From a virus, in the IMG/VR virus record IMGVR_UViG_3300009285_005279, positions 1-29,161 of that record: 29,161 nucleotides of DNA; one strand, written 5' to 3'. The notes beneath the pieces are model-generated. The model was given only the letters and a program-made list of their open reading frames with translations. It made no database searches and was not told the DNA's origin. A program made the translations under genes and the position numbers. Below, piece after piece: positions 594 to 14,687 of the stretch (the first letter of the stretch is position 1; every line of letters starts with the position of its first letter).

Positions 594-929
594 TTATGCC
601 CGCTTTATTTCATCTTTCGGATCGAACTTCTTTGTACAACACCCCAAAAGAATTGACCCCTGCTCAAGATCAAAAAGATGATAGGCTCCTTTTTTAACGA
701 TCCATTTCCTTAGCGCGGGTATGTCATGCTCCTCACTATTCCCTATGATAACTCTTTTTGCCTTGCCAATCAATAAAAGAAAAATCTCATCCTTTTTTTT
801 ATGGTAATGATCGCCGACAATACAATTATCTTTTGCAATAACTACTTTTGATGTGACAAACTTAGAATCCTCTATCCACTCAATAAGTACCCTTCGATTG
901 TCTTCGTGGGTATAAATCTCCTCTGTCAT
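594..929 (-). CDS. Cupin-fold protein, sugar-modification type
   Basis: A 111-residue protein with the first cupin motif at about residues 40-60 (GDHYHKKKDEIFLLLIGKA: G-x-H-x-H then E and G), giving the His-His-Glu set that usually binds a metal or shapes the pocket. Small single-domain cupins of this kind are common among nucleotide-sugar isomerases and epimerases (FdtA/WxcM-like) in glycan clusters. Its ATG overlaps the stop of the dehydratase gene by 4 bases (ATGA), so translation is probably coupled. A role in modifying the sugar made by the neighbouring enzymes is inferred from fold and context; the exact reaction cannot be read. Confidence 0.7.
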   Translation of the reverse strand: MTEEIYTHEDNRRVLIEWIEDSKFVTSKVVIAKDNCIVGDHYHKKKDEIFLLLIGKAKRVIIGNSEEHDIPALRKWIVKKGAYHLFDLEQGSILLGCCTKKFDPKDEIKRA

Positions 930-1936
930 ATTTTTCCAGTTAATTCACTGTCAACCATAATCTTTATGAGATCATTAAAACGAGTATCTACTTTATAACC
1001 AAGTACTTTTTCAGCTTTTGAATAGTCTCCTTTAAGTAAGTCAACCTCTGCCGGACGCATGAAGTTCTTATCTATTTCGACATATTTCTTCCAATCTAGC
1101 CCTAGATATTCAAACGTAGAAGAAACAAACTCTTCCACAGTGTGGGTTTCTCCTGTTGCTATAACAAAATCATCTGGTTCATCGAGTTGTACCATTTTCC
1201 ATATCCAATAAACATAGCTTTTCGCGTAGCCCCAGTCTCGTATCGCATCAAGATTGCCAAGATAGAGTTTATCTTGTTTCCCCTGCTTAATGGCTACGGC
1301 AGCTTTCACAACCTTCTTTGAGAGGAAATTATCGCCCCTACGAGGGCTTTCATGATTGAATAGTATCCCACAATATATCTTCATCCCATACCCCTCTCGG
1401 TATGCTCTAGCAAGATAATAGGTATATGCCTTTGCACAACCATAGGGACTGCGAGGATAGAATGGTGTCGTTTCCTTTTGCGGCACTTCTTGAACCTTTC
1501 CAAACATTTCTGATGAACACGCTTGGTATATTTTTATAGTAGGATTGACCACGCGAACTGCCTCAATGATACGCGCGAAGCCAATGCCAGTCACTTCTCC
1601 TGTATAGACAGGGATATCGTATGATATGCGAACTTGGCTCATTGCCGCAAAGTTATATATCTCGTCAGGCATTACTTCTTTAATAATCTTTTGAATGTTA
1701 TTGCCATCAAACAAATCCCCATAATGAAGAAAAAAACGCCTGTTAAAAAGAGCTTCCTGATTGATGAGGTGATCTATCCTATAAGTATTTAAGGAACTGG
1801 AACGGCGTAAAACCCCGTGCACTTCGTAATTTTTCTCAAGAAGAAGTTCGGAAAGATAACTTCCGTCCATTCCTGTTACTCCAAAAATAAGAGCTTTCTT
1901 ATTTTGCAAATCTTCCTTTTTTATCTCTTTTTGCAT
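926..1936 (-). CDS. gmd: GDP-mannose 4,6-dehydratase
   Basis: A 336-residue extended short-chain dehydrogenase/reductase. The N-terminal NADP-binding motif GVTGMDGSY is at about residues 19-27, followed by RRSSSLNTYRIDHL, a signature of this dehydratase. The catalytic set is visible as SSEMFG (about 141-146) and Y165-x3-K169 in YGCAK. Length matches the family (about 320-370). It converts GDP-mannose to GDP-4-keto-6-deoxymannose, the branch point to fucose, rhamnose and related deoxy sugars; no GDP-fucose synthase is seen nearby. The start used lies inside the end of the upstream HNH gene (38-base overlap). The enzyme core only begins near residue 13, so a slightly later start is possible. 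Confidence 0.93.
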   Translation of the reverse strand: MQKEIKKEDLQNKKALIFGVTGMDGSYLSELLLEKNYEVHGVLRRSSSLNTYRIDHLINQEALFNRRFFLHYGDLFDGNNIQKIIKEVMPDEIYNFAAMSQVRISYDIPVYTGEVTGIGFARIIEAVRVVNPTIKIYQACSSEMFGKVQEVPQKETTPFYPRSPYGCAKAYTYYLARAYREGYGMKIYCGILFNHESPRRGDNFLSKKVVKAAVAIKQGKQDKLYLGNLDAIRDWGYAKSYVYWIWKMVQLDEPDDFVIATGETHTVEEFVSSTFEYLGLDWKKYVEIDKNFMRPAEVDLLKGDYSKAEKVLGYKVDTRFNDLIKIMVDSELTGKI

Positions 1937-2303
1937 ATTGCATTTCGAGTTTTCTATGCTCGCTATTAGTAAGAATTATTAAATTTTTTATATCATTATT
2001 TTTTGGATTACCATCTATATGATGAATGTGTTCTGATGAATTCAATAATCTTTTTAGATATTTTTCCATTATAAGACGATGAATATACTTATCCGTTTTA
2101 CTATCTCTTAAATATCCATCTGGCCTTGTTTTTATACCACCTTTCCATAAATGATTGTTTTTACCAATGTTCCATTTTGAATAACATTTTCTATTACAAA
2201 ATTCTCTTCTATCCCAATCCCTGTTTCCTTCTGTCTTTCTTGGAATTATTATTTTCGAACATAATTTACAATTTTTCTTTTCATAAAAAACAATCTTAGC
2301 CAT
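1899..2303 (-). CDS. HNH endonuclease with NUMOD3-like motif
   Basis: A 134-residue protein. An N-terminal Cys-rich part (CKLCSK near residues 12-17 and FCNRKCYSKW near 35-44) resembles a small zinc finger. It is followed by a NUMOD3-like DNA-binding stretch (GKNNHLWKGG, about 47-56) and an HNH core with HIHHIDGNPKNNDIKNL (about 92-108) and a late HRK. It sits 6 bases after the stop of a glycosyltransferase gene and runs 38 bases into the dehydratase gene, so it is wedged into a metabolic operon without visibly breaking it. This is typical of free-standing homing endonucleases. The local DNA is notably AT-rich, consistent with recent arrival. Confidence 0.87.
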   Translation of the reverse strand: MAKIVFYEKKNCKLCSKIIIPRKTEGNRDWDRREFCNRKCYSKWNIGKNNHLWKGGIKTRPDGYLRDSKTDKYIHRLIMEKYLKRLLNSSEHIHHIDGNPKNNDIKNLIILTNSEHRKLEMQYAKRDKKGRFAK

Positions 2304-2309
2304 ATAATT

Positions 2310-2969
2310 TTAAATAATAAATTCATTCTCAAGGCGGCCAGGTATGCCAATATGGTAATTATACTTCTTTTTTGCCCAATCTTCTTGCCTAAAAGAATGG
2401 TTTTTAAGCAGAGCAAGATGATAAAACTTATAAGGAAGTATTTTGACTTTCTTATGTGTTTTCCAATAGAGTGCATTACCTTCATCATCGCAAGGCAAAT
2501 CACGAGGCCAATCGCCCTCATAATGAAGGCGTTCCGTCCTTTTAAGAAACTTTGAAAACGACTTATTATACCATGATGTATCATAGTGCCATGAGTCTAT
2601 GAGTTGATAGGGACTGACTGAATAGGCAAGCGTTCCGTCGTCTTTTTCAATCTCTTTAAGGCATAATTCTAGTTGGTCTTGCGGCCACCAGTCATCATCA
2701 TCCAAAAAGAGTATCCAATCCTGCACGGTTCTATCTACCTGAAATTGTCTTAGTTGGGTGAGTTGTCCTGGTATCGTATATCCATCCTGCATGAATTCTA
2801 CCTTACCAGGATTGTCGCCTATGAATTCCATCACTTCTTGCAAGGTCCCATCATCGCTTAATTGAGATACAGAAATGAACATTTTATCCATGAGCGATGC
2901 CACTTGTCGCAAAACTTTACCGATAAATGGCATTCCTTGTTTTACGATAGTATGTGAACAAATTTTCAT
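2310..2969 (-). CDS. Glycosyltransferase family 2-like protein
   Basis: A protein of about 219 residues beginning MKICSHTIVK (an ATG three codons upstream, at 2978, is also possible). The acidic metal- and nucleotide-binding motif is visible as ILFLDDDDWWP at about residues 86-96, the usual place for the DxD of GT-A fold enzymes. The C-terminal half has many Trp, Tyr and His residues and no membrane segment, so a soluble transferase is likely. It starts within the last bases of the FkbM-type gene upstream (4-base overlap). Acceptor and donor sugars cannot be read from sequence. Confidence 0.72.
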   Translation of the reverse strand: MKICSHTIVKQGMPFIGKVLRQVASLMDKMFISVSQLSDDGTLQEVMEFIGDNPGKVEFMQDGYTIPGQLTQLRQFQVDRTVQDWILFLDDDDWWPQDQLELCLKEIEKDDGTLAYSVSPYQLIDSWHYDTSWYNKSFSKFLKRTERLHYEGDWPRDLPCDDEGNALYWKTHKKVKILPYKFYHLALLKNHSFRQEDWAKKKYNYHIGIPGRLENEFII

Positions 2970-3598
2970 ATTCCGCAAATTACATTTTCTTTCGTTGTCG
3001 CTATATGCCTATATCCATGTTCTAATAGATACGATAAAAACTTATCACTGTTTTTTATATATTCAACACAGACAAGTTTTGTTTTTAGTTTCTCAAGGTC
3101 TATTTGTGAAAGTATTTCATAATCCATACCTTCCGCGTCTATTGTTATAAAATCTATCTCCTTAAACTCCTCATCAAGTGAATTGTAAAAACTTTCAAAT
3201 GTCCTCCCAACTACTAATACGCGAGTCCAAAATATTCTTCCCTCCCACTTTCTCCAGCGATAAAGTTCTTCTTCTTTTATCGTTGAGATGAGAGCAATGT
3301 CTTTTTTCTTTAATTTCTTTGAACAGAGCGGGCCTGATTCATGAAGTATGACATTCCCGTCCTTCTCTGTTATGGCGATATTATGAAGTGACACGTTATC
3401 ATTTCCTTTATAAAGATTCGACAATCTTAAAAAGGCTAATATAGACGGCTCAACCATAATCCCTTTCCATCCAAGTTCTGTGAGTTTTCTTGAATTGCTA
3501 AATGTCTTCCCATCATTCGCTCCAATATCCAAAACAGTACCGATATGTCCGTTAAAATAATTGAGGATTATTTCTTCTTCGTTATTTTGGCTATACAT
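2966..3598 (-). CDS. FkbM-family methyltransferase
   Basis: A 210-residue S-adenosylmethionine-dependent methyltransferase. Motif I is VLDIGANDGKTFSN (about residues 22-35) and the acidic ribose-binding motif follows as GIMVEPS. Further on, EIDFITIDAEGMDYEIL (about 145-161) is the IDxEGxExxIL signature of the FkbM family, which usually O-methylates sugars or polyketides. It overlaps the preceding methyltransferase gene by 31 bases. One of two FkbM-type genes in this operon, it probably caps or decorates a glycan; the acceptor is unknown. Confidence 0.85.
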   Translation of the reverse strand: MYSQNNEEEIILNYFNGHIGTVLDIGANDGKTFSNSRKLTELGWKGIMVEPSILAFLRLSNLYKGNDNVSLHNIAITEKDGNVILHESGPLCSKKLKKKDIALISTIKEEELYRWRKWEGRIFWTRVLVVGRTFESFYNSLDEEFKEIDFITIDAEGMDYEILSQIDLEKLKTKLVCVEYIKNSDKFLSYLLEHGYRHIATTKENVICGI

Positions 3599-4242
3599 AA
3601 TAAATAGATTGATATTTTTTCAATATCATATTCAGGAATAAGCGGATTAAGAATGGAACGCACAGAATCTTCATTGTAATTCCTTAGATGTTCTTTTGTC
3701 TCATCATTCCCCATGCACCCATTAAGAAATGTCATATAGAGCAAGCCGCCATTTTTTGTTTTTTCACTACATTTTTTTATGAGCCAAGAATCATCTTCGA
3801 CGTGTTCCAAAACATCATTGACGATGACCATATCAAACTCATCTTGAATAATGTTTATATTTTTTATGTCATCCGCAATGCCATAGATGCCATATTCGTT
3901 TTTCATTCTTTCAATGGCAATTTTTGACAAGTCTATCCCAAAGAATCGTGATTCAGGTAATATCGTTTTTATGCCATACAAGAGCCGTCCATTGCCGGAA
4001 CCAATATCAAGAACTGATTTTGGTTTATACATATTCGCGTACCAAAAAGCCCTGTTGACTGAATGTTTATCATGAGGTCGCAAGCCGTAAAATGCTTCAT
4101 CCCAATACTCTTTCTTTATGACATTTTGGACCGTAGCAGCTATGAAAGACTTTTTATCATCATGCCGCCATTTCGACCAAACAGTATCCCAGTATTCAGG
4201 TGTATTGCAGTGTTCTATAATTTCCTTCTCCATAATTGCCAT
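3568..4242 (-). CDS. Class I SAM-dependent methyltransferase
   Basis: A 224-residue protein with a Rossmann-type motif I, SVLDIGSGNGRLLYG, at about residues 75-89. The adenosine-binding acidic loop is FFGIDLS, and the post-motif FDMVIVNDVLEHVEDD (about 135-150) is typical of the Methyltransf_11/23 families. The N-terminal 70 residues contain several Trp and Asp residues and may bind the substrate. It overlaps both neighbours by about 30 bases, so it is part of one translationally coupled chain. Sugar methylation is inferred from context only. Confidence 0.82.
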   Translation of the reverse strand: MAIMEKEIIEHCNTPEYWDTVWSKWRHDDKKSFIAATVQNVIKKEYWDEAFYGLRPHDKHSVNRAFWYANMYKPKSVLDIGSGNGRLLYGIKTILPESRFFGIDLSKIAIERMKNEYGIYGIADDIKNINIIQDEFDMVIVNDVLEHVEDDSWLIKKCSEKTKNGGLLYMTFLNGCMGNDETKEHLRNYNEDSVRSILNPLIPEYDIEKISIYLLCIAKITKKK

Positions 4243-4796
4243 TTATCGTTTAATATCCGTTCATGATTCAATGAGAGGATATGTTGACACTCACTGTAAT
4301 ATCCTAAAAGTTCAGGAACTTTGTGAAATTGTACGAGTATCTCACCTATACCGTTTATCATATCGTTCTCATAGAGGTCTTTTATAATGTCATACTCACA
4401 ACCCTCACAATTCAATTTCAATACATCGATTTTATATCCATCGAGCCGTTTTGACGCTTTGACGCTTTTCACTTCTATTGGCACACACACTGTTTTTTTA
4501 TTTTTTTTATACCATGATTCATAAATAGTCGAACCGTCTTCATTGAGATAAAGCAATGGACTTTCAATGTTTGAGAGTGCGCATTCCTCCACAAAAATAC
4601 GTTCTTCCTTCTTAAATCTTTTTTTAATAACGTCACAATAGACGGGATGTGGTTCAAATATAAGAATTGAACATTTGAACATATCAAACATTCTTTTTGC
4701 GTATTCGCCATTATACCCACCAACATCGACAATAAAGGAATTATAATTAAGATTTCTATCATGATGGGCGATAATCGTATCAAGAGACATCTTCAT
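4215..4796 (-). CDS. FkbM-family methyltransferase, second copy
   Basis: A 193-residue methyltransferase with motif I IVDVGGYNGEYAKR at about residues 22-35 and the binding loop LIFEPHPV. The FkbM signature is VLKLNCEGCEYDII at about residues 124-137. It is shorter at the N-terminus than the other FkbM-type gene (2966-3598), and the two differ in sequence, so they are not a recent duplication. Its ATG overlaps the previous stop by 4 bases. It probably methylates a second position on the same glycan, which is inference. Confidence 0.83.
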   Translation of the reverse strand: MKMSLDTIIAHHDRNLNYNSFIVDVGGYNGEYAKRMFDMFKCSILIFEPHPVYCDVIKKRFKKEERIFVEECALSNIESPLLYLNEDGSTIYESWYKKNKKTVCVPIEVKSVKASKRLDGYKIDVLKLNCEGCEYDIIKDLYENDMINGIGEILVQFHKVPELLGYYSECQHILSLNHERILNDKWQLWRRKL

Positions 4797-5371
4797 ATAA
4801 TTCTTTTTGCTATAACGAGTATATTGGGGAATCTGTATCGTGTCCTTTTTTCTCCATAGCGTATATAGCTGTGTTTTTGTTTTATAAGTTCAATATAAAA
4901 TCCAATCTTGGGTAGTATGTCTTGAAACTTTTCCTTGTACCACGCGCTCTTATGATATGCCCAATCAGCTTCTTGTGAACCATAGGCGTGTTTTGCAAGA
5001 TGCTCCTTGTCAGCCCAGTATTTCTTTTCATTCCATACCTCACAGATTCTTCCAAAATCAGGTGTTTCTACTGTTAATCTTCCGCCAATCATCAGCCATG
5101 ATTTCCAAAGTTTCAAAACTTCTATTGATTCATCATATCCAAAGTGTTCAAGAAGATGATGAGAGCGCACTTCCTCAAGATTGCTAAATGTCATCGTTCT
5201 GAAATCACCAACAATATCAACAAATTGATGCGGCTCTATGTCAATGCGCGTATATCCAGGTACGGGCTTATTTCCACTTCCAATTTCAAGTCTTGTAACA
5301 TTGGAAATATCTATGCCATTTTTTGTATTCACCCCTGATGTTCCGGTAGGAGCGATAGCCGTGCTTGTCAT
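4793..5371 (-). CDS. Small SAM-dependent methyltransferase
   Basis: A 192-residue protein with the motif RLEIGSGNKPVPGYTRIDI (about residues 27-45). This LxIGSGxxPxxGYxxxD pattern belongs to a methyltransferase group common in glycan clusters. It is followed by HHLLEHFGYDE, the usual late motif, and VETPDFGRI. The first 25 residues are low in hydrophobics and rich in Thr, Gly and Ser. The chosen ATG at 5371 makes an 86-base overlap with the upstream glycosyltransferase, which is unusually long, so the true start may lie closer to residue 22. Its target is unknown. Confidence 0.72.
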   Translation of the reverse strand: MTSTAIAPTGTSGVNTKNGIDISNVTRLEIGSGNKPVPGYTRIDIEPHQFVDIVGDFRTMTFSNLEEVRSHHLLEHFGYDESIEVLKLWKSWLMIGGRLTVETPDFGRICEVWNEKKYWADKEHLAKHAYGSQEADWAYHKSAWYKEKFQDILPKIGFYIELIKQKHSYIRYGEKRTRYRFPNILVIAKRII

Positions 5372-5972
5372 AAAACTTTTCCTTGTTAAGAGTAGAAATA
5401 TAATTCCATTGTTTCATATTATGTTCTCGTGTCTTTCCGAAAAGATGGCACGTTCGTATCCGTTTCAGCGTAATTGACGAGAGACCGTTGAGTTTAATAC
5501 GCCATGCAAAATCCAAATCATCAACACTCCATTCGAATCTCTCATCAAAAATGCCTATCGATTGAAATATATCCATTCTAAATACGGCATTCGGCCCATA
5601 AAGCAACGGGACGAATCCTTCATCGTCTTTTGTCATATCAACCGCTTTTTTGAAGACATCCATATCATCCGTTTCAACATATCCACCAGAAACACAATGA
5701 TTACTTTTCAATGCTTCGCAAACATCTTCGAGCCAACCTTCTGAAAATACGAGATCGTCATTAAACACGCCAAACGCATATCCCTCCCTCTTTGATAAAA
5801 GAGGGCGCAATATCTTGTTTATCTCAATAGCTCCGTACGAACTTCCATCGATAATATGAAGAGTAAGTTTTGAGAAATTCTTTGTTGTTTCAAAAAAACT
5901 CTTCTTAAAGTTTTCAAGAATATGCGGATATTTTGATTGAACGACAATATGAATGTCAGAATTGATAGTCAT
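5286..5972 (-). CDS. Glycosyltransferase family 2-like protein
   Basis: About 228 residues from the ATG at 5972 (MTINSDIHIVV); an ATG at 6005 would add 11 residues but lengthen the overlap with the gene before. The donor-binding acidic motif is FGVFNDDLVFSEGWL near the middle, and the later WSVDDLDFAWRIK corresponds to the ED-type catalytic region of GT2 enzymes. No membrane helix is present. It is the third of three consecutive GT2-type genes here, so the operon could build a short oligosaccharide. Specificity is not readable. Confidence 0.72.
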   Translation of the reverse strand: MTINSDIHIVVQSKYPHILENFKKSFFETTKNFSKLTLHIIDGSSYGAIEINKILRPLLSKREGYAFGVFNDDLVFSEGWLEDVCEALKSNHCVSGGYVETDDMDVFKKAVDMTKDDEGFVPLLYGPNAVFRMDIFQSIGIFDERFEWSVDDLDFAWRIKLNGLSSITLKRIRTCHLFGKTREHNMKQWNYISTLNKEKFYDKHGYRSYRNIRGEYKKWHRYFQCYKT

Positions 5973-6555
5973 GTTTTCTGTTATTATCTTTTCGCAATTC
6001 TCCAAGATGATAAAAGTGATTGCTCAATGTATAGCATTTATGAGACCTAATACGGCTTCCGCAAAGAGCAAGTGTTTCAGTACCATAAATACCGCTCCAT
6101 GAAACAGCATCCGTATTTCTAAAAAGACGTTTGATAATAAGTCCTGATTGGGATGTTTTCTTGCTTATATGAATGAATGGGATTGAAACGATATTGTCGC
6201 CCCCGTTTTTTATTACATCGCATATTTCTTCCATTAGTACATCTGGGAATAGTTCGTCATCATCTATTTTGAGAATCCACTCTGATTTTGTTTCTTTCTT
6301 CATTTGATTAAGAAGTCGCGTCAATTCCCTGTCTTTCTCTGAACCAGTCCATATTTCACCAAGATGTTGAATATCGAATTGCTTGATGATGGCTTTTGGG
6401 AATCGATCCTTTACAAATTCAACCGTTCCGTCAGTCGATCCCGTATCATAAACGATTATTTCATTTGAATAGTCATATACGGAGTCAAGCGTCTCTTTTA
6501 TAAACGCCGTCTTTCCATTAAGTGTCATCATGTTTATAGCGAGATTCATAATCAA
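5956..6555 (-). CDS. Glycosyltransferase family 2
   Basis: A 199-residue GT-A fold protein. The nucleotide-binding start is LAINMMTLNGKTAFIKETLDS; EIIVYDTGSTDGTVEFV (about residues 32-48) is the classical GT2 DxGSxDGT motif, and WILKIDDDELFPD (about 93-105) holds the metal-binding DDD. It is short compared with full GT2 enzymes and has no C-terminal membrane segment. Its ATG overlaps the previous stop by 4 bases. Clear family assignment; acceptor unknown. Confidence 0.85.
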   Translation of the reverse strand: MIMNLAINMMTLNGKTAFIKETLDSVYDYSNEIIVYDTGSTDGTVEFVKDRFPKAIIKQFDIQHLGEIWTGSEKDRELTRLLNQMKKETKSEWILKIDDDELFPDVLMEEICDVIKNGGDNIVSIPFIHISKKTSQSGLIIKRLFRNTDAVSWSGIYGTETLALCGSRIRSHKCYTLSNHFYHLGELRKDNNRKHDYQF

Positions 6556-7253
6556 TTATTGATGCAAAGTTCCGAACCGTCCGAAAAAATCTTTTTTATT
6601 GAAACGCGTTCTTTATGATTGTACCCTTTTTTGAACCCAATATCATGAGCTTTCGGCTCATGTTCCATGGTCGCCATCAAATATCCGCAACGGACAAAAA
6701 CATCGTTCCACAAACTTCCTGCAATGCTATGATTACGAAACAACCCTATTTTGAAAAAATCTTCTCTCCTCATAACCCATGAATTGCTTCCCGCTCTCAT
6801 ATTGAGAAGATATTTTTTACCGTTTACTTCAATCTCTCCCATCCAATGTCTATGATTTCTATGTTCTCTATCTGTGCGCAATGGAGTCATAAGAATCTTC
6901 CTATCAGGATTCTGCTCAAGAACAGAGATACATTCTTCCAGCCATCCTTGCTTATACTCAATATCGTTATCGGTGAAAACAAGATACTCCCCGACAGAAA
7001 GATGAACGCCGATATTTCTTCCATAGCCAAAATATAAATTTTCAGAATTGCGAATATAGTGATGAATCTTTTTTTCATTACATAATCCAAGAAGATACTG
7101 TGAATCTTCTAATGAACCCCCATTGTCACACACGATAATTTCCACCTGAAGATGCTTTGTTGTTTCAATCAATGATTGATAACAACGTCGCATTACTTCT
7201 GATCGTTGTTCGTTCATTGACCAATGGGTTGAGATAATTGAAATTTTCTCCAT
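6552..7253 (-). CDS. Glycosyltransferase family 2
   Basis: A 233-residue GT2 protein. IEIIVCDNGG-like donor-binding sequence lies at about residues 38-46. YGRNIGVHLSVGEYLVFTDNDIEYKQ follows near 75-100, giving the R-N-x-G element and the DND metal site. Later VMRREDFFKIGLF and the LWNDVFVRC region fit the acceptor side of the fold. It overlaps the amidotransferase gene by 40 bases at its start. Together with the next two genes it forms a run of three GT2-type genes. Confidence 0.85.
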   Translation of the reverse strand: MEKISIISTHWSMNEQRSEVMRRCYQSLIETTKHLQVEIIVCDNGGSLEDSQYLLGLCNEKKIHHYIRNSENLYFGYGRNIGVHLSVGEYLVFTDNDIEYKQGWLEECISVLEQNPDRKILMTPLRTDREHRNHRHWMGEIEVNGKKYLLNMRAGSNSWVMRREDFFKIGLFRNHSIAGSLWNDVFVRCGYLMATMEHEPKAHDIGFKKGYNHKERVSIKKIFSDGSELCINN

Positions 7254-8551
7254 ATCTTATATTGAAAATCAAGATATTTATCCTTTGAGTATTTATCGCT
7301 TTCGCCAAGAAACTCATTGACACGGCAATAGAGCCCTTTCTTCTCGATATGTTTATAATCGGGATTTCTCTTTTCTAAAATCCTGCGCAGAATAACCTTT
7401 GTTTCAAGTCCATTGATTTTAAGCTCATCAGGCAATGAGTAGGCAAATTCTATGATTCGTTTATCAAGAAACGGACAACGATTCTCAATACCAAACGCAC
7501 TACTCATCCTGTCTCCCATGCGAAGAAGTTCTTGCATGTTTCCGTTAAACTCATTCCATCCATATTCACTTACTGACATGGCTGGCTCAAACATTTTTTT
7601 GTATGACGGAAACTCCTTTTGCGCCAAATGATTGAAGTGAGGAGCGACATACCTTACATACCCGCCAAAGAGTTCGTCAGCTCCCTCTCCCGACAGAACG
7701 ACTTTCACTTTTTTTGATGCTTCTTTGGCAAGTTTCCACAAACCAAATGGCGAAAAACTTGAGGCAGGATAATCGAGGTGGTAGATGATGTCTTCTGCTT
7801 TTTCGAGAAATTCTTCTTTGTAATCATATCTGTCTTCATAGGAATAGGTATATTCAAAATCATGAAATGTCTTGATAAGTGAGGAATCAATGCCACCTGA
7901 ATAATAGAGGGCGTATGGAACGTCAGATTTCGTCCTTAGACGCACGGAATCATCAAGGAGATACTCTAGCTCTTCTTGGGCGTCAAAAATGCTTATATCG
8001 CGTTTTATTGGCTCCCAGTAGCGCTTTATATCAAGAAAACCTGTCTTTATATCATAAATGCCGTAATGAGCAGGTTTTAATTCCTTACAATCCCAAAAAA
8101 GAGCTTTTGCCTCTGATGCGAAACAAAATGGATTTTCTTTATAATAAAGTGGCTTCTCTCCCGCACTATCGCGCGCGAAAAATATCTTCTCACCATCATA
8201 AATGGCAAAGGCAAACATCCCGTTGAAACGGTCGAGGCATCCAACGCTCCATTCCTTCCATGCCTTGAATAGAACTTCAGTATCAGACTTTGTTTTGAAC
8301 TCATGTTTCTCTCTGAGTTCATTTTTAAGTTCTTCATAGTTATATATTTCACCATTGAAAGAAAGATACGAGCCATCTTCTTCGTAAAGGCAAAGATTGT
8401 CTGATTCTAAATCAAGGATTGAGAGACGCCCCATCCCTATTGCGAATCCGTTTTTTTCAGCAGTTCTCGTTCCGTCAGGCGAGCGATGAATCATCGCCTG
8501 AAGCATCGAATCGACTTTCTCTATTGAATACGCGCCAGCTATACTGCACAT
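7214..8551 (-). CDS. Asparagine synthase-like glutamine amidotransferase
   Basis: I start at the ATG at 8551 because glutamine-hydrolysing enzymes of this family need Cys directly after Met (MCSIAGAYS); a longer frame starting at 8566 would block that residue. The glutaminase half shows HRSPDGTRT, GRLSILDL and NGEIYNYEEL. The synthetase half has the ATP pyrophosphatase loop YYSGGIDSS (about residues 216-224) and SGEGADELFGGY. At 445 residues it is shorter than AsnB (about 550). Within a sugar operon beside a nucleotide-sugar dehydrogenase, amidation of a uronic acid is more likely than asparagine supply. That is inference, with precedent in O-antigen clusters. Confidence 0.88.
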   Translation of the reverse strand: MCSIAGAYSIEKVDSMLQAMIHRSPDGTRTAEKNGFAIGMGRLSILDLESDNLCLYEEDGSYLSFNGEIYNYEELKNELREKHEFKTKSDTEVLFKAWKEWSVGCLDRFNGMFAFAIYDGEKIFFARDSAGEKPLYYKENPFCFASEAKALFWDCKELKPAHYGIYDIKTGFLDIKRYWEPIKRDISIFDAQEELEYLLDDSVRLRTKSDVPYALYYSGGIDSSLIKTFHDFEYTYSYEDRYDYKEEFLEKAEDIIYHLDYPASSFSPFGLWKLAKEASKKVKVVLSGEGADELFGGYVRYVAPHFNHLAQKEFPSYKKMFEPAMSVSEYGWNEFNGNMQELLRMGDRMSSAFGIENRCPFLDKRIIEFAYSLPDELKINGLETKVILRRILEKRNPDYKHIEKKGLYCRVNEFLGESDKYSKDKYLDFQYKIWRKFQLSQPIGQ

Positions 8552-9390
8552 ACCGATTCGAGCCATTTCATAAAATCAGTTTTTGGCAGCCATTTGAGAA
8601 TACTATGCGCTTTTTTTATATTTGCCCTTGAATGCATCGGCTCGTTATCTCTCTGTTGATAATATAATATGTCATCACTTATCTTGCGCGCAACATCATC
8701 TATCACCGTACTTATGCTCGAACCTATGTTTATCGGTTCTCCATTCAAAGGAAATGGATATGACATGGCGGAAATATTCGCATTAACCACATCATCGACA
8801 GAAACAAAATCTCTCGTCTGTTTTCCGCCGAATACAGGAAGGGGCATACCATTTTTTTTCTTATCCAAAAAAATAGCGACAGCCGCGCTATACGGTGAAT
8901 CACATTTCATCCCATCTCCATAAACATTGAAGTACCGAAGACATACGGTATCGAGTCCATAGGTTGTGGAATACATTTTACAAAGTTCTTCTCCTATAAG
9001 TTTTGAAAAGCCATACGGAGAAAGCGGTTTCTTCTCGTCAAATTCTTCATACGCCTTTCCTGTCCTGTCATTTTTTGCGTTTATGCCATAGATTGCCGCC
9101 GATGATGAGAAAATAACGCGCTTAACAGATTCGGAGTGTATTGCGCACTCTAAGACATTCATCGTCCCAGATACATTCGTTCTAAATGTTTCTATGGGAT
9201 TTTCAACGGATTTTTGAACATTTACTTCTGCGGCGAGGTGAAAAACATAATCAATTCCCGCAAAGTCTTTAGGTTTCATTTCCAATATATCTTTCCCGTC
9301 TACAATATCATATCCGACACTATCGGCATCAATTTTCTTCTGAAGATGAGAACCTATAAACCCCCTATTTCCCGTGATAAGAACTTTCAT
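8539..9390 (-). CDS. NAD-dependent nucleotide-sugar epimerase/dehydratase
   Basis: A 283-residue extended short-chain dehydrogenase/reductase with the Rossmann motif GNRGFIGSHL at about residues 7-16. Also visible are VFHLAAEVNVQKSVENP, a catalytic Ser region VIFSSSAAIYG (about 93-103) and Y125-x3-K (SPYGFSK). LRYFNVYG and GKQTRDFVSVDD complete the GalE/UDP-sugar epimerase pattern. It is somewhat shorter than bacterial GalE (about 330). It probably epimerises or otherwise converts a UDP-sugar, possibly the product of the adjacent dehydrogenase. It overlaps its neighbours by 13 and 26 bases. Confidence 0.88.
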   Translation of the reverse strand: MKVLITGNRGFIGSHLQKKIDADSVGYDIVDGKDILEMKPKDFAGIDYVFHLAAEVNVQKSVENPIETFRTNVSGTMNVLECAIHSESVKRVIFSSSAAIYGINAKNDRTGKAYEEFDEKKPLSPYGFSKLIGEELCKMYSTTYGLDTVCLRYFNVYGDGMKCDSPYSAAVAIFLDKKKNGMPLPVFGGKQTRDFVSVDDVVNANISAMSYPFPLNGEPINIGSSISTVIDDVARKISDDILYYQQRDNEPMHSRANIKKAHSILKWLPKTDFMKWLESVCAV

Positions 9391-10162
9391 AGCCCGAATT
9401 TTTATCTAACATTGCCTTAATAAGTTTTGGTTCAAAACCGTTTTTTTGGCATACTTTGAAAAAAGCCCATGTATCTTTTGGAAAACATTTACCGCCATAT
9501 CCTCTTTTATTTTTGAAAACAGCGGTATGCATTGGCTCAACACGAGGATCATCAATCCACCCCTCACGAACCTTGTGCCAATTTGCTCCCAGTATTTCGC
9601 ATATCTCCCTAAGTTCGTTCGCAAACGTCACCTTCATTGCGCCCCATGTATTTTCCGCATATTTGATAACCTCGGCTTCCAGTGGTGTCACAAAACGGAA
9701 CCGTGTTGTCGGGCCGAGAACAGGGACAAGTATATCGGCAACTTCAGAGCAATCCTCATCAGTTCCTCCAAGGATAACAAATCCATGTGATAGTGGATTC
9801 TGTGGGTCTGGGTATTTCGGTGGTGTATAATACTTCCCTTCGCCGAGATATTCTGGGGAAACGACAATCCTCTTATCGTATTTCTCTTTGAGGAGGTCAA
9901 CTGTACCTGGTTCAAGGGCTGATTTTATCAAAATGAGTGGCGTTTCAATCCATGAAACAACATCTTCTACGATTGAGGTATCGCAACTTTTATCATCGGC
10001 TGATGGAGTTGGAACACATAGTATTGAAAGTTCGCATTGATTGACATCATTTCGCGTCCCAATTTTTAACGGTTCATCATACTGAATGGCATCAGGAAAA
10101 ATCTTTAACATCCCTTTACCGACATAACCCATGCCTACAATCGCAATGCAATTTTTATTCAT
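9365..10162 (-). CDS. UDP-glucose/GDP-mannose dehydrogenase family, short form
   Basis: A 265-residue nucleotide-sugar dehydrogenase, first gene of the operon. It has the NAD-binding GMGYVGKGM (about residues 10-18), CVPTPS, ALEPGTV and SPEYLGEG. The central helix EVIKYAENTWGAMKVTFANEL and the catalytic-cysteine motif GYGGKCFPKD (Cys226) follow. The family oxidises the C6 hydroxyl of UDP-glucose or GDP-mannose to a carboxylate. The protein stops about 40 residues after the cysteine motif, so the C-terminal nucleotide-sugar-binding domain of the standard enzyme (about 400-440 residues) is missing. The ORF has no frameshift sign, so this looks like a genuine short form. Confidence 0.9.
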   Translation of the reverse strand: MNKNCIAIVGMGYVGKGMLKIFPDAIQYDEPLKIGTRNDVNQCELSILCVPTPSADDKSCDTSIVEDVVSWIETPLILIKSALEPGTVDLLKEKYDKRIVVSPEYLGEGKYYTPPKYPDPQNPLSHGFVILGGTDEDCSEVADILVPVLGPTTRFRFVTPLEAEVIKYAENTWGAMKVTFANELREICEILGANWHKVREGWIDDPRVEPMHTAVFKNKRGYGGKCFPKDTWAFFKVCQKNGFEPKLIKAMLDKNSGYESSYHGK

Positions 10163-10267: not shown

Positions 10268-10546
10268 CTACGCCGACGTTGTTGTTGATGAACTTGATGT
10301 TGTTGTAGATGACGTGGTAGTCGTCGTTGACGTCGTTGTACTTGTCGACGTGGATGTCGAAGATGTAGAGGTAGATGTAGAGGATGTACTTGTCGACGTG
10401 GATGTCGTACTCGTAGATGTTGACGACGTGGAAGTTGAACTCGACGTCGACGATGTAGTTGTAGTTGTGGATGTGGACGTTGATGTTGAGGTTGTTGTCC
10501 ATGTGAAACCGCTTACACCAGATGTCCCAAATTCAAATTCAGCCAT
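10268..10546 (-). CDS. Small protein with long Ser/Thr repeat tail
   Basis: A 92-residue protein with a short ordered start (MAEFEFGTSGVSGFTW) followed by about 75 residues that are almost only Ser and Thr. The DNA is a degenerate three-base repeat, so other frames are open too, including a plus-strand frame of alternating Val and Asp. The minus frame is preferred because it is codirectional with the head genes, starts 5 bases after the upstream stop and has a sensible N-terminus. Such tails are flexible and are classical acceptors for O-linked sugars. The glycan operon begins just downstream, so a glycosylated virion surface protein is an attractive but unproven idea. Confidence 0.65.
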   Translation of the reverse strand: MAEFEFGTSGVSGFTWTTTSTSTSTSTTTTTSSTSSSTSTSSTSTSTTSTSTSTSSTSTSTSSTSTSTSTTTSTTTTTSSTTTSSSSTTTSA

Positions 10547-12731: not shown

Positions 12732-13286
12732 TCAACTCGTGACACCCGTTCTTCGCGCATGAGTGCGAGGTGCGTCAGTGATAAGCTGTCCGTACCACAG
12801 AAGATGGCCCACAACGACATCCTGATTAGCCGGTTCTTTCCATCCAGTCCACGCAAAACCATTCTTCACTTCACGTTCCGGATTTGGGATCGTATAGAAA
12901 AACAAATGTTTTTCATTGAGCGTGAAGATATTTTCTGCGGTACATTTCTCATCAGCAACAAAGGGGATGCCACGGAATGTAAGAGCGCGGAATCCCTGAT
13001 TCGCAGCCAATGTCCCGCCAACGCGCACCATGCCTGTTTCCGTCATGCGGAAATCATTCATACTGAATTGGTGAGAAACGGTTGGCGTAAGAAGTGCTTC
13101 AAAGATAGTGAATACCGCCGGCGTTGAAACCTTCAATGTCGGAGCATCATCTCCACGCTGTGCCGCGTCAAAATCCGCTGCAAGGTTTGCTAATGACAAT
13201 GAACCTGACTGCGCCGTTCGCGTTCCGCGCCAATTCGTATAGGTCGCACGGGATAGTCCGCCGTATGTTGTGACATCAGTTGAATC
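12732..13286 (-). CDS. Major capsid protein, 3' exon
   Basis: This frame encodes the C-terminal 184 residues of the capsid protein. It opens with DSTDVTTYGGLSRATYTNW, a stretch that in related HK97-fold capsid proteins directly follows a segment like the end of the other exon. It continues with VSTPAVFTIFEALL and ends in a conserved-looking FAWTGWKEPANQDVVVGHLLWYGQL. A stop lies three codons upstream, so it cannot stand alone without a poor TTG start at 13289. Joined in frame to 14687-14217, with residue 157 (Tyr) followed by Asp, it gives a 341-residue protein of normal capsid size. The exact junction is inferred. Confidence 0.87.
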   Translation of the reverse strand, partial: DSTDVTTYGGLSRATYTNWRGTRTAQSGSLSLANLAADFDAAQRGDDAPTLKVSTPAVFTIFEALLTPTVSHQFSMNDFRMTETGMVRVGGTLAANQGFRALTFRGIPFVADEKCTAENIFTLNEKHLFFYTIPNPEREVKNGFAWTGWKEPANQDVVVGHLLWYGQLITDAPRTHARRTGVTS

Positions 13287-14216
13287 CAAGTGTTATCGTA
13301 AAGGCTCTTTATCCTTTACTTCTCTATGTTTCCATAGAGGTCAGACTATATCATCCCTTTCGGGCAGCGTTTTCGTGGGAGTATTACTGGCGTTTTTTAG
13401 AGTTATATTCTTCATTATAACAAGGCATACACCTACCCCTGCCATAATGTGGTTTATCTTTTTCCCCACAAATGACACAGGATAAGAATTTTTTTGTCCA
13501 TTTTCCATTGAGATATGGTTTTAATTTTTTCTTTAATCCATTTTTATACTCGTATCTCAACTGGCATGTGTTGGTGCAGTATTTTTTCTCTCTATGTTTA
13601 TACGTTGGAGTTTGAGTTTTCTTTCCACAATATAAACATTTATAGATTTTTGGCTTCTTATAGTTTGGGTTATTCTCACCAGATTGGTTTTTCTTAACCC
13701 ACGAACTATTACAAGCCTTACTACACCAAAATCTTTTAGACCTTTTTATTCGATAATAATGTCTAATCAATTTTGCATCACACTCTGAACATTGTACTTC
13801 CTTGTTAATGAACTGCTCTAAACGGTAGCCTCGACTCCTAGTCGTTACACCTTCCGAGAAGTTTCCATCTCGGCTTGGCTCGGTATTGTCCTTTTGGATG
13901 TCCACCGAATTTACGCCGTTTATATTTATCAAGCCTAGTAGCCATCTTGCTACTAAAAGTTCTTTTCCGAATATCAGCCTATGACATCCGAAGCAAAGAG
14001 TGATCCCATTATTCACATCAACTCTTTTTTCGTAATGGCTTCTTAGTGGGAATATATGGTGCGCTTCTATTCTCCCATTCTTCCCACATACTTTACACTT
14101 CCATCTATCTCTTCGATAAATGGTTGATCGCCATAGTTTATATTCTGGTGACTGTTTTAGTGCATAGTGTTTATCCATGCACTAATTATATCAAAGAACT
14201 TCTAGGGTTACAAGCT
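13287..14216 (-). mobile_element. Group I intron (930 bases) in the capsid gene, carrying an HNH ORF
   Basis: The insertion separates two in-frame halves of the capsid gene. Group I hallmarks on the minus strand: a P4/P5 region around 13881-13907; GAGCCAAGCC (13881-13872); a perfect P6-like hairpin CCGAGA/TCTCGG (13873-13854); P7 halves GACTA (13843-13839) and TAGTC (13348-13344); a P8-like CCC-GAAA-GGG hairpin (13364-13355); the string GATATAGTCTGA; and a P9-like hairpin CTCTATG-GAAA-CATAGAG (13339-13322). P3 could be the 7-base match 13922-13916 with 13825-13819. The proposed ends follow group I rules: the exon ends in U and the intron ends in G. The ends are inferred, and another placement by a few bases is possible. 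Confidence 0.85.
13384..14178 (-). CDS. Intron-encoded HNH homing endonuclease
   Basis: A 264-residue protein. The HNH domain is at about residues 18-70: C28-x2-C31, EAHHIFPL with H40 and H41, N57, and C62-x2-C65-H66. A linker (about 71-120) follows. The C-terminal half carries three Cys-pair zinc-finger-like units (CSEC and CSKAC; CLYC and CTNTC; CVIC and CMPC) and a NUMOD3-like SGENNPNYK. These features belong to homing endonucleases that cut intronless alleles and spread the intron. Residues about 91-113 are encoded by the predicted ribozyme core, so one DNA segment appears to serve as both protein code and catalytic RNA. Confidence 0.88.
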   Translation of the reverse strand: MDKHYALKQSPEYKLWRSTIYRRDRWKCKVCGKNGRIEAHHIFPLRSHYEKRVDVNNGITLCFGCHRLIFGKELLVARWLLGLININGVNSVDIQKDNTEPSRDGNFSEGVTTRSRGYRLEQFINKEVQCSECDAKLIRHYYRIKRSKRFWCSKACNSSWVKKNQSGENNPNYKKPKIYKCLYCGKKTQTPTYKHREKKYCTNTCQLRYEYKNGLKKKLKPYLNGKWTKKFLSCVICGEKDKPHYGRGRCMPCYNEEYNSKKRQ

Positions 14217-14687
14217 ATAAGCAAGTGTGGACAATGTTTTATCCACGGCGGCATGAATACCGAGAATGTCCTTCGAACTATTTCCTGTACCATCAGAGTA
14301 TACCTGTGTACCAATCTCATCCTTGAGGCGTTTTGTGCGCCATTCTATTTCTGTTGCGACAAGATTAAGAACTGCGGCATCACCCTGATTAACTGCTTTC
14401 TGAATGCCCGAAATAGGGATTGCGACATATACCTGCGACGGCGTGAAAGATGCGCGCTGGCGCGTATTCTCCTGTGTCGTCGAAAGTGTATCGAATCCAG
14501 AGTATGACCCAACTGCGGTAATATCCGACAAATGGACGGGCTGTTCGATAGAAACGCCGCCATTCCATGTGCGCGAATTGCGTAAAAGGCGCATTGAAAG
14601 GACATTGCCATTCAATACGCTATCAATCGCAGCCGGAATAAACCGATCCTGGGTCACACTCGTTACGATCGTTCCGAGTGCTGGCAT
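14217..14687 (-). CDS. Major capsid protein, 5' exon
   Basis: The N-terminal 157 residues of the HK97-fold-type major capsid protein. The beginning, MPALGTIVTSVTQDRFIP, is followed by SMRLLRNSRTWNGG. A region near residues 55-100 includes YSGFDTLSTT and RASFTPSQVYVAIPISGIQ, and KRLKDEIGTQVYSDGTG then ILGIHAAVDKTL follows near the exon end. Without splicing the frame reads only two more codons before TAA at 14208-14210. The start lies 9 bases after the scaffold stop. The capsid gene follows portal and scaffold in the usual head-gene order. Confidence 0.87.

Follow-up and report, generated by a model that had tools for sequence, protein, structure and literature searches.

Phage group I introns are described in a review as targeting polymerases, ribonucleotide reductases and terminases, and the same review notes that some intron ORFs reach into the ribozyme core (PMC3984707). 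A study of 136 huge-phage genomes counted 2,513 group I introns and names terL and nrdD among the split genes (PMC12363816), and a term search of the main text of the group I database paper did not return the word 'capsid' (PMC11835236). Capsid genes were reported in 31% of T5orf172 endonuclease neighbourhoods (PMC10448857). For the major capsid gene of mycobacteriophage LittleE, splicing was proven by RT-PCR and N-terminal sequencing, with the intron type given by the authors as unclear and most likely group I, and the same paper names an intron in a capsid subunit gene of the lactococcal phage Tuc2009 (PMC3706429). As to overlaps between ORF and core, Table 1 of Edgell et al. (2011) gives lengths of up to 81 nt, located at the 5' or 3' end of the ORF, together with the warning that some of them are possibly misread ORF ends, and the ribosome site of I-TevI is described there as hidden by an RNA hairpin (PMC3073962).

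The locus analyzed here belongs to IMG/VR record IMGVR_UViG_3300009285_005279; the whole stretch of 29,161 nt is called the window, and all coordinates are window positions unless another locus (L followed by a number) is named. On the evidence of its sequence, a group I intron almost certainly interrupts the major capsid gene. The LittleE case is similar in that an insertion of about 819 bp lies in an HK97-type major capsid gene, the exon ending in U and the intron in G, and it differs in that its LAGLIDADG-like frame lies on the opposite strand, whereas the window has an HNH frame on the same strand and through the core (PMC3706429). Tuc2009 shares the location in a capsid gene (PMC3706429). 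Overlap between an endonuclease ORF and core elements is likewise found in T4 td/I-TevI and the other cases of Edgell et al., unlike which about 85 nt of core (P3 to P7.1) stand in the middle of the ORF in the window (PMC3073962). In the literature searched, mostly other than subscription papers and in part seen only as excerpts, we saw neither an intron lineage described as favoring capsid genes nor an ORF whose domains flank the core on either side. I-TevI has its nuclease in front and its zinc finger behind, the same order as in the window ORF, and fungal mitochondrial introns with ORFs continuing from exon 1 may be precedents for reading through parts of the core. The element is of a known kind, in a host gene that is known but little described for it, and its gene layout is unusual.

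Capsid gene and boundaries of the insertion

Two minus-strand ORFs, 14687-14208 (159 aa) and 13289-12732 (185 aa), encode parts of a single protein, which confirms the initial annotation of two in-frame capsid-protein parts separated by a stop-containing insertion. When the 341-residue protein joined in that annotation was aligned to capsid families, it matched phrog_9953 ('major head protein') in a single stretch (E = 6.9e-52; residues 6-335 of the join against positions 11-325 of the 329 in the profile), and a Pfam search of the capsid protein gave nothing at E 0.1. Upstream of the capsid gene are a portal gene (phrog_156, P22_portal) and a terminase gene (phrog_38). The uninterrupted homologue L002 has 72% identity to the spliced window protein, and its predicted structure, which is of modest confidence (mean pLDDT 59.8, pTM 0.63), matched HK97-type capsids in Foldseek (best 6j3q_A, E = 7.8e-11) as well as predicted viral capsids. 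By both family match (phrog_9953) and fold (the L002 model), the product of the interrupted gene is a major capsid protein of the HK97 type. The nearest capsids of named phages have about 30% identity (TM7 phage DolZOral124_53_65, a Manatee Spring record), the capsid matches among phages comprised 14 records, every one in one piece, and a search of cellular genomes for relatives of the capsid gene gave 233 pattern stretches, none of them a relative.

The first homologue search returned 18 loci: the window's own virus in another record (L011), 14 uninterrupted genes (L001-L010, L012, L014, L017 and L018, with L001, L014 and L017 cut further on by contig ends) and three interrupted ones (L013, L015 and L016). 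A further search added L020-L024, with L020-L022 uninterrupted, L023 interrupted twice, and L024 a distant partial match only. The eight residues KTLSTLAY, which the earlier join had placed between ..AAVD and DSTDV.., are absent from all 14 uninterrupted homologues of the first search, and because of this the 5' splice site was placed after 14241 (GTGGAT followed by AAAACATTG), the intron running from 14240 to 13287. By the same 14 homologues, the 930-base extent given initially is wrong at its 5' end, the site being 24 nt further upstream, and the real join has 333 residues and not 341; the 3' boundary at 13287/13286 was right. The U...G rule stands in that U ends the exon and G ends the intron, but the exon end is GTGGAT, 24 nt from the TAT that had been claimed. 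Exact removal of the insertion, with the junction set in this way, restores the host gene. The exon-1 frame reads 10 codons into the intron and then meets a stop. A second record of the same virus (IMGVR_UViG_3300002460_000071, 41356 b) carries the same intron, with 99.985% identity over 6552 b. The features are collected in Table 1.

Table 1. Positions of the capsid exons, intron, ribozyme helices and intron ORF in the window
Feature	Position	Strand	Remark
Exon 1, major capsid gene	14241..14687	-	149 codons, ends GTGGAT; stops where 14 uninterrupted homologues continue
Exon 2, major capsid gene	12732..13286	-	184 codons + stop
Group I intron (almost certain)	13287..14240	-	954 nt
P1 5' strand	14241..14246	-	GUGGAU; exon ends at its final U
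P1 3' strand / internal guide sequence	14227..14232	-	GUCCAC
P3 5' strand	13914..13918	-	CGGCG
P4-P5	13879..13909	-	UUCGGU / UCC..GGA / ACCGAG
P6-P6a	13850..13878	-	CC..GG with CCGAGA/UCUCGG
P7 5' strand	13839..13843	-	GACUA
P7.1 5' strand (proposed)	13834..13838	-	GGAGU
P7.1 3' strand (proposed)	13378..13382	-	ACUCC; one base past ORF stop
P3 3' strand	13365..13369	-	CGCUG
P8	13355..13364	-	CCC-GAAA-GGG
P7 3' strand	13344..13348	-	UAGUC
P9	13322..13339	-	CUCUAUG-GAAA-CAUAGAG
P9.1	13298..13319	-	GUAAAGG..CCUUUAC
Omega-G, final intron base	13287..13287	-	G
264-aa ORF, predicted HNH homing-type endonuclease	13384..14178	-	reads through ribozyme core
HNH domain	13975..14097	-	ORF residues 28-68
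Zinc-ribbon-like part of ORF	13387..13800	-	within proposed P7.1 loop; cysteine pairs by eye
11-pair hairpin, ORF ATG in stem	14157..14185	-	-13.2 kcal/mol for 32 nt around

Elsewhere in the neighborhood, a Ser/Thr-rich low-complexity repeat frame was seen downstream of the capsid genes in both the window (10268-10546, minus strand) and L023 (5858-6373). The minus strand of the window at 594-10162 holds a long run of genes whose functions, judged by eye, may be in sugar and glycosyl transfer (dehydratase, epimerase, asparagine synthase-like, glycosyltransferases and methyltransferases), a large sugar-gene load given the 41 kb of this virus's second record.

Group I identity and helices of the ribozyme

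The covariance search with Rfam gave a match in one setting only. At its gathering score (50), RF00028 returned nothing in the insertion and nothing in a search of the whole record, while the permissive search gave 28.4 bits (E = 5.2e-5, below the gathering score) over 13484-13322 and a second piece of 16.0 bits (E = 0.27) over 13914-13834. A second model, R1, was built from 27 introns of other loci (A4 alignment) with the window excluded, these being 27 of 32 extracted introns, five of which were left out for unalignable 5' parts or a P9 ORF. With E-values that are rough by the tool's own statement, R1 matched the window at 13465-13295 (59.7 bits, E = 1.9e-15) and at 13897-13773 (34.9 bits, E = 1.4e-8), which are the two core halves in order, and the next best match in the window had 8.1 bits (E = 0.35). 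Across ten other loci, R1 found L015, both L023 introns (35.9 and 38.2 bits), L013 (31.1 bits), L059 and L120; it gave nothing at E 1 in L003, L004, L009 and L018, whose capsid genes are whole, and one weak match in L002 (E = 0.12), outside the capsid gene. RF00028 scored 65.6 bits (E = 1.1e-14) on L015 and L016, missed L013 in the wider search and found it in a narrow one (36.4 bits, E = 1.7e-7), and had no match on L023 at E 1. The idea that the middle core is part of a second intron was dropped, as R1 finds two ordered halves in the window, L059 and L120 alike.

The helices were assigned by eye, and P3 (5 pairs), P5 (3), P7.1 (5) and P8 (3) are short. P1 (GUGGAU/GUCCAC) closes with U·G at the splice site; taken alone it is weak evidence, as one also forms in 1589 of 20000 shuffled versions of the intron's first 30 bases. 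The conserved core from P3 to P9, including P7 and P3, was found, and the P7 halves GACTA and TAGTC and the GAAA-capped P8 and P9 pointed out initially are indeed present. For P3', CCGUU about 20 nt behind P7 was set aside for CGCUG adjoining P8, because P3' adjoins P8 in L013 and L015 and the relatives read CACGAG before P8. The proposed P7.1 (GGAGU/ACUCC) fits between P7 and P3' and lines up, as assigned by eye, with the hairpins of relatives, its position matching that of the hairpin behind P7 in L037, L051 and L132 and in the A4 introns. The presence of P7.1/P7.2 is a mark of subgroup IA.

When helices were set in four introns (the window, L015, the first of L023, and L013), 175 of 187 opposed positions pair, in comparison to 259 of 501 in a control in which 3' arms were swapped between introns; P7 was left out and P1 of L013 was not scored, and the control favors our helices because the arms were chosen by us. 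Poorly pairing as set are P5 of L023 (1/5), P5 of L013 (4/7) and P6a of L015 (5/8). The assignment to group I draws on the agreement of the 14 empty-site homologues, the Rfam match below cut-off, the R1 scores well beyond chance, the terminal U and G, and helices P1-P9.1, and it supports the group I intron in the major capsid gene that had been proposed.

Introns in related capsid genes

L015/L016, L023 and L013 carry introns in capsid genes of the same family as that of the window. The insertion sites are after codon 149 in the window, after codon 150 for the first intron of L023 and after codon 151 in L015, three sites within 6 nt, and each of these introns follows a U that closes P1 with G. 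The target stretch codes for D149 and D150, which are invariant in two alignments. The other sites are after codon 64 in L013 and near codon 310 for the second intron of L023. As to coding content, no ORF was seen in L015, the first L023 intron has its ORF in P6, and that of the window runs through the core.

The L023 capsid gene holds two group I introns (2171-3000 and about 3490-4210), each with an HNH ORF, the first in P6 and the second behind P9. Between window 13384-14178 and L023:2322-2918, the order of HNH and ribbons is reversed, in introns 3 nt apart in related capsid genes.

A putative endonuclease ORF through the ribozyme core

The initial annotation is silent on the 264-aa HNH ORF that fills most of the insertion. 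Its HNH domain, the mark of an HNH homing endonuclease, scored above the cut-offs of two Pfam families (PF13391, E = 1.1e-6; PF01844, E = 7.2e-6) and also matched PHROG HNH families, and residues 173-209 weakly matched Polyhomeotic-like protein 1 (E = 0.0075). The HNH part lies between P1 and P3, the core from P3 to P7 (13918-13839) is read through, and the ribbons follow in the P7.1 loop, with the 5' arm of the proposed P7.1 inside the ORF and the stop codon one base before the 3' arm. In 5000 mononucleotide shuffles, 11 pairs around the ATG arose 8 times. The AlphaFold model of the ORF is poor outside the HNH part (mean pLDDT 53.5, below 50 for residues 72-176). Among viral contigs, a whole-length relative was found in none but the same virus, and 40 phage records match the HNH part only, covering at most about one quarter of the query in the best 30 of 40. 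The endonuclease gene is a more unusual part of this locus than the capsid location.

A second, free-standing HNH ORF lies at 1899-2303 on the minus strand (HNH_3, E = 4.1e-10), with a ribbon-like N-terminal part, and overlaps ORF 926-1936 by 38 bases.

Among 162 distinct cores collected by a J6/7-P7 pattern (without the duplicates L011, L019 and L264), three, namely those of the window, L059 and L120, are flanked on each side by 50 or more open codons, all in the same frame. If 30 open codons upstream and 25 downstream are enough, the count is 13 of the 162 in that frame and 3 and 1 in the other frames, which means that an open frame by itself is no great rarity. Both L059 and L120, which are from IMG/VR, resemble the window in that P3-P7 is read through in an identical register and a ribbon-like part occupies the place of P7.1. 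In L059 a single frame of 295 codons contains two ribbon-like stretches, the HNH, the core and another ribbon-like stretch; it differs from the window in the two ribbon-like parts before the HNH, in having no ATG before the core (TTG or GTG are the starts) and in its exon 2, which is a major head protein of another PHROG (1328). In L120 the ribbon-like part follows the core and, unlike in the window, there is no HNH.

The core-coded residues read NGVNS..NTEPS..EGVTT in the window and NGVNS..NPEPS..EGVTT in L059, in the same frame. The likeness of the core-coded residues (Z 8.0 and 10.1) may stem from RNA conservation alone. Between L059 and L120, dS is 0.04 and dN 0.18 in the core (31 codons), dS 1.47 and dN 0.48 in the part behind it (47 codons; dN/dS about 0.3), and dS 0.96 and dN 0.78, near neutral, in the last 18 codons; the substitution pattern is one of RNA constraint in the core, protein constraint behind it, and little thereafter. 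The window ribbons, which stand behind the core, match best the ribbons before the HNH in L059 (Z 10.1, residues 39-98) and L023 (Z 8.5) and only weakly the ribbon of L120 (Z 3.0), and the window HNH gave Z 19.1 against L059 and 28.1 against L023. Because the window ribbons resemble pre-HNH ribbons, what unites the window, L059 and L120 is the frame and the position, and HNH and ribbon modules seem, from these comparisons, to have been shuffled.

Several of these data would also fit a ribozyme that splices and an ORF that is a decaying composite, in which an HNH remnant (P1-P3) and a zinc-ribbon remnant (P7.1) share a frame by chance: the order in L023 differs (ribbons and then HNH, all inside P6), the threaded frame of L120 lacks an HNH, the window ribbons match best those before the HNH in L059 and L023, and 13 of 162 cores are open in this frame by the milder count. 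We consider such decay rather unlikely, since 264 codons run without a stop, the HNH part passes two Pfam cut-offs, HNH, core and ribbon-like part share one frame in L059 as well, and the dN/dS ratio behind the core of L059 and L120 is low.

Further ORFs in or near cores were seen. At L120:5444-5812, a 123-aa ORF without an HNH runs through the core with ribbon-like parts around, perhaps as a remnant or as a binding protein in its own right. In L035, L070, L141, L040, L117, L125 and L225, ORFs of about 234-357 codons stand behind P7 in the place of P7.1 and all share the window's core frame, with a LAGLIDADG-like look by eye in L035, L070 and L141; in some of this set the first start codon is inside or after the core.

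Distribution of the intron lineage

The motif GATATAGTCYGACCT (P7'-P9) was scanned in IMG/VR and gave at least 119 stretches (L025-L143), with at least 121 sites, at least 104 downstream-exon candidates and at least 58 clusters; the 40 cluster representatives tested stand for 85 of the at least 104 candidates. Among the matches listed, 'major head protein' was found for 57 of the 85 candidates and 15 of the 40 clusters. The capsid hits fall in 12 PHROGs (10, 1357, 1328, 247, 267, 3437, 1005, 11589, 283 and 9953, and weakly 371 and 752). The other 25 clusters (28 candidates) were DNA polymerase (4), endonucleases (4), tape measure (2), terminase (2), NrdA, ATPase, sheath, Sak4 and peptidase (1 each), and unknown or no hit (8). 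Some sites (L096, L098) look by eye like chance matches in coding DNA. When exon 1 was sought in the 15 capsid representatives, six (L134, L058, L059, L062, L122 and L051) had by eye a capsid-like N-terminal frame that stops within or ahead of the intron.

The control motif AAGATATAGTCTAAWC gave at least 123 sites, at least 108 candidates and at least 57 clusters, of which 20 clusters (68 candidates) were tested. Among the matches listed, capsid genes made up 7 of 68 candidates and 3 of 20 clusters for this motif, and tape measure, NrdA and DNA polymerase together 37 of 68. The thresholds were unequal, at 1e-4 for GATATAGTCYGACCT and 1e-8 and 1e-5 for AAGATATAGTCTAAWC. Among the matches listed, the capsid excess has a Fisher p of 3e-13 by sites (57/85 in comparison to 7/68), the sites being related, and a p of 0.08 by clusters (15/40 in comparison to 3/20). 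Because of this relatedness and the cluster-level value, the capsid preference of this intron lineage, as seen in its sequences, is suggestive and not proven. The initial view of a capsid location as less usual fails for this lineage, given the share of candidates above, and the capsid intron of LittleE is published (PMC3706429).

Proposed mechanism and implications

The explanation that appears likely as a whole, judging from sequence, is that the ribozyme splices the capsid RNA and the core-threaded ORF is a homing endonuclease. The ribozyme, with GUGGAU held by P1, would cut the transcript behind its U, and GUGGAU would then be joined to GATTCA after omega-G, giving the 333-residue capsid protein. 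The ORF product would cut intron-free capsid genes near codon 149, its zinc ribbons reading the target and its core-coded stretch serving as a linker, and repair of the cut would copy the intron into the empty gene. Because a translating ribosome would unfold the core, splicing and endonuclease synthesis would be mutually exclusive on one RNA. Splicing, homing and this exclusion are what we infer for the locus; by analogy we also infer that the start-codon hairpin acts as a translation control, which would hold down translation of the ORF from the long capsid transcript.

A dead capsid gene, in which no splicing takes place and the virus is defective or makes two separate products from the halves, is very improbable: the records come from metagenomes only, P5 and P8 have three pairs each and RF00028 stays below threshold, but both exons are open and align end to end with homologues, the named core helices pair, and the same intron is present in two records. 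HNH domains occur in inteins too. The chance that the insertion is an intein or another in-frame protein insertion, to which its HNH domain could also belong, is practically nil, since the stop after 10 intron codons makes it untranslatable with exon 1, which refutes that reading for this insert, and covariance models of group I match.

These data tentatively raise a wider possibility, one that we hold with limited confidence: a group I lineage may be specialized on major capsid genes across many phage families, and in some of its members the core may double as linker code, with the exclusion between translation and splicing acting as a switch between mobility and capsid production. The frame through the whole core offers a natural case for 'core creep' (PMC3073962), one RNA stretch serving as ribozyme and as protein code. 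On the practical side, gene calling in metagenomes may split a capsid gene into two fragments. Capsid genes are late and highly expressed, and unspliced RNA should therefore be costly; with a lineage found largely in capsid genes, in this sample of uncultivated viruses, the cost of the intron and the reason why homing still wins become testable.
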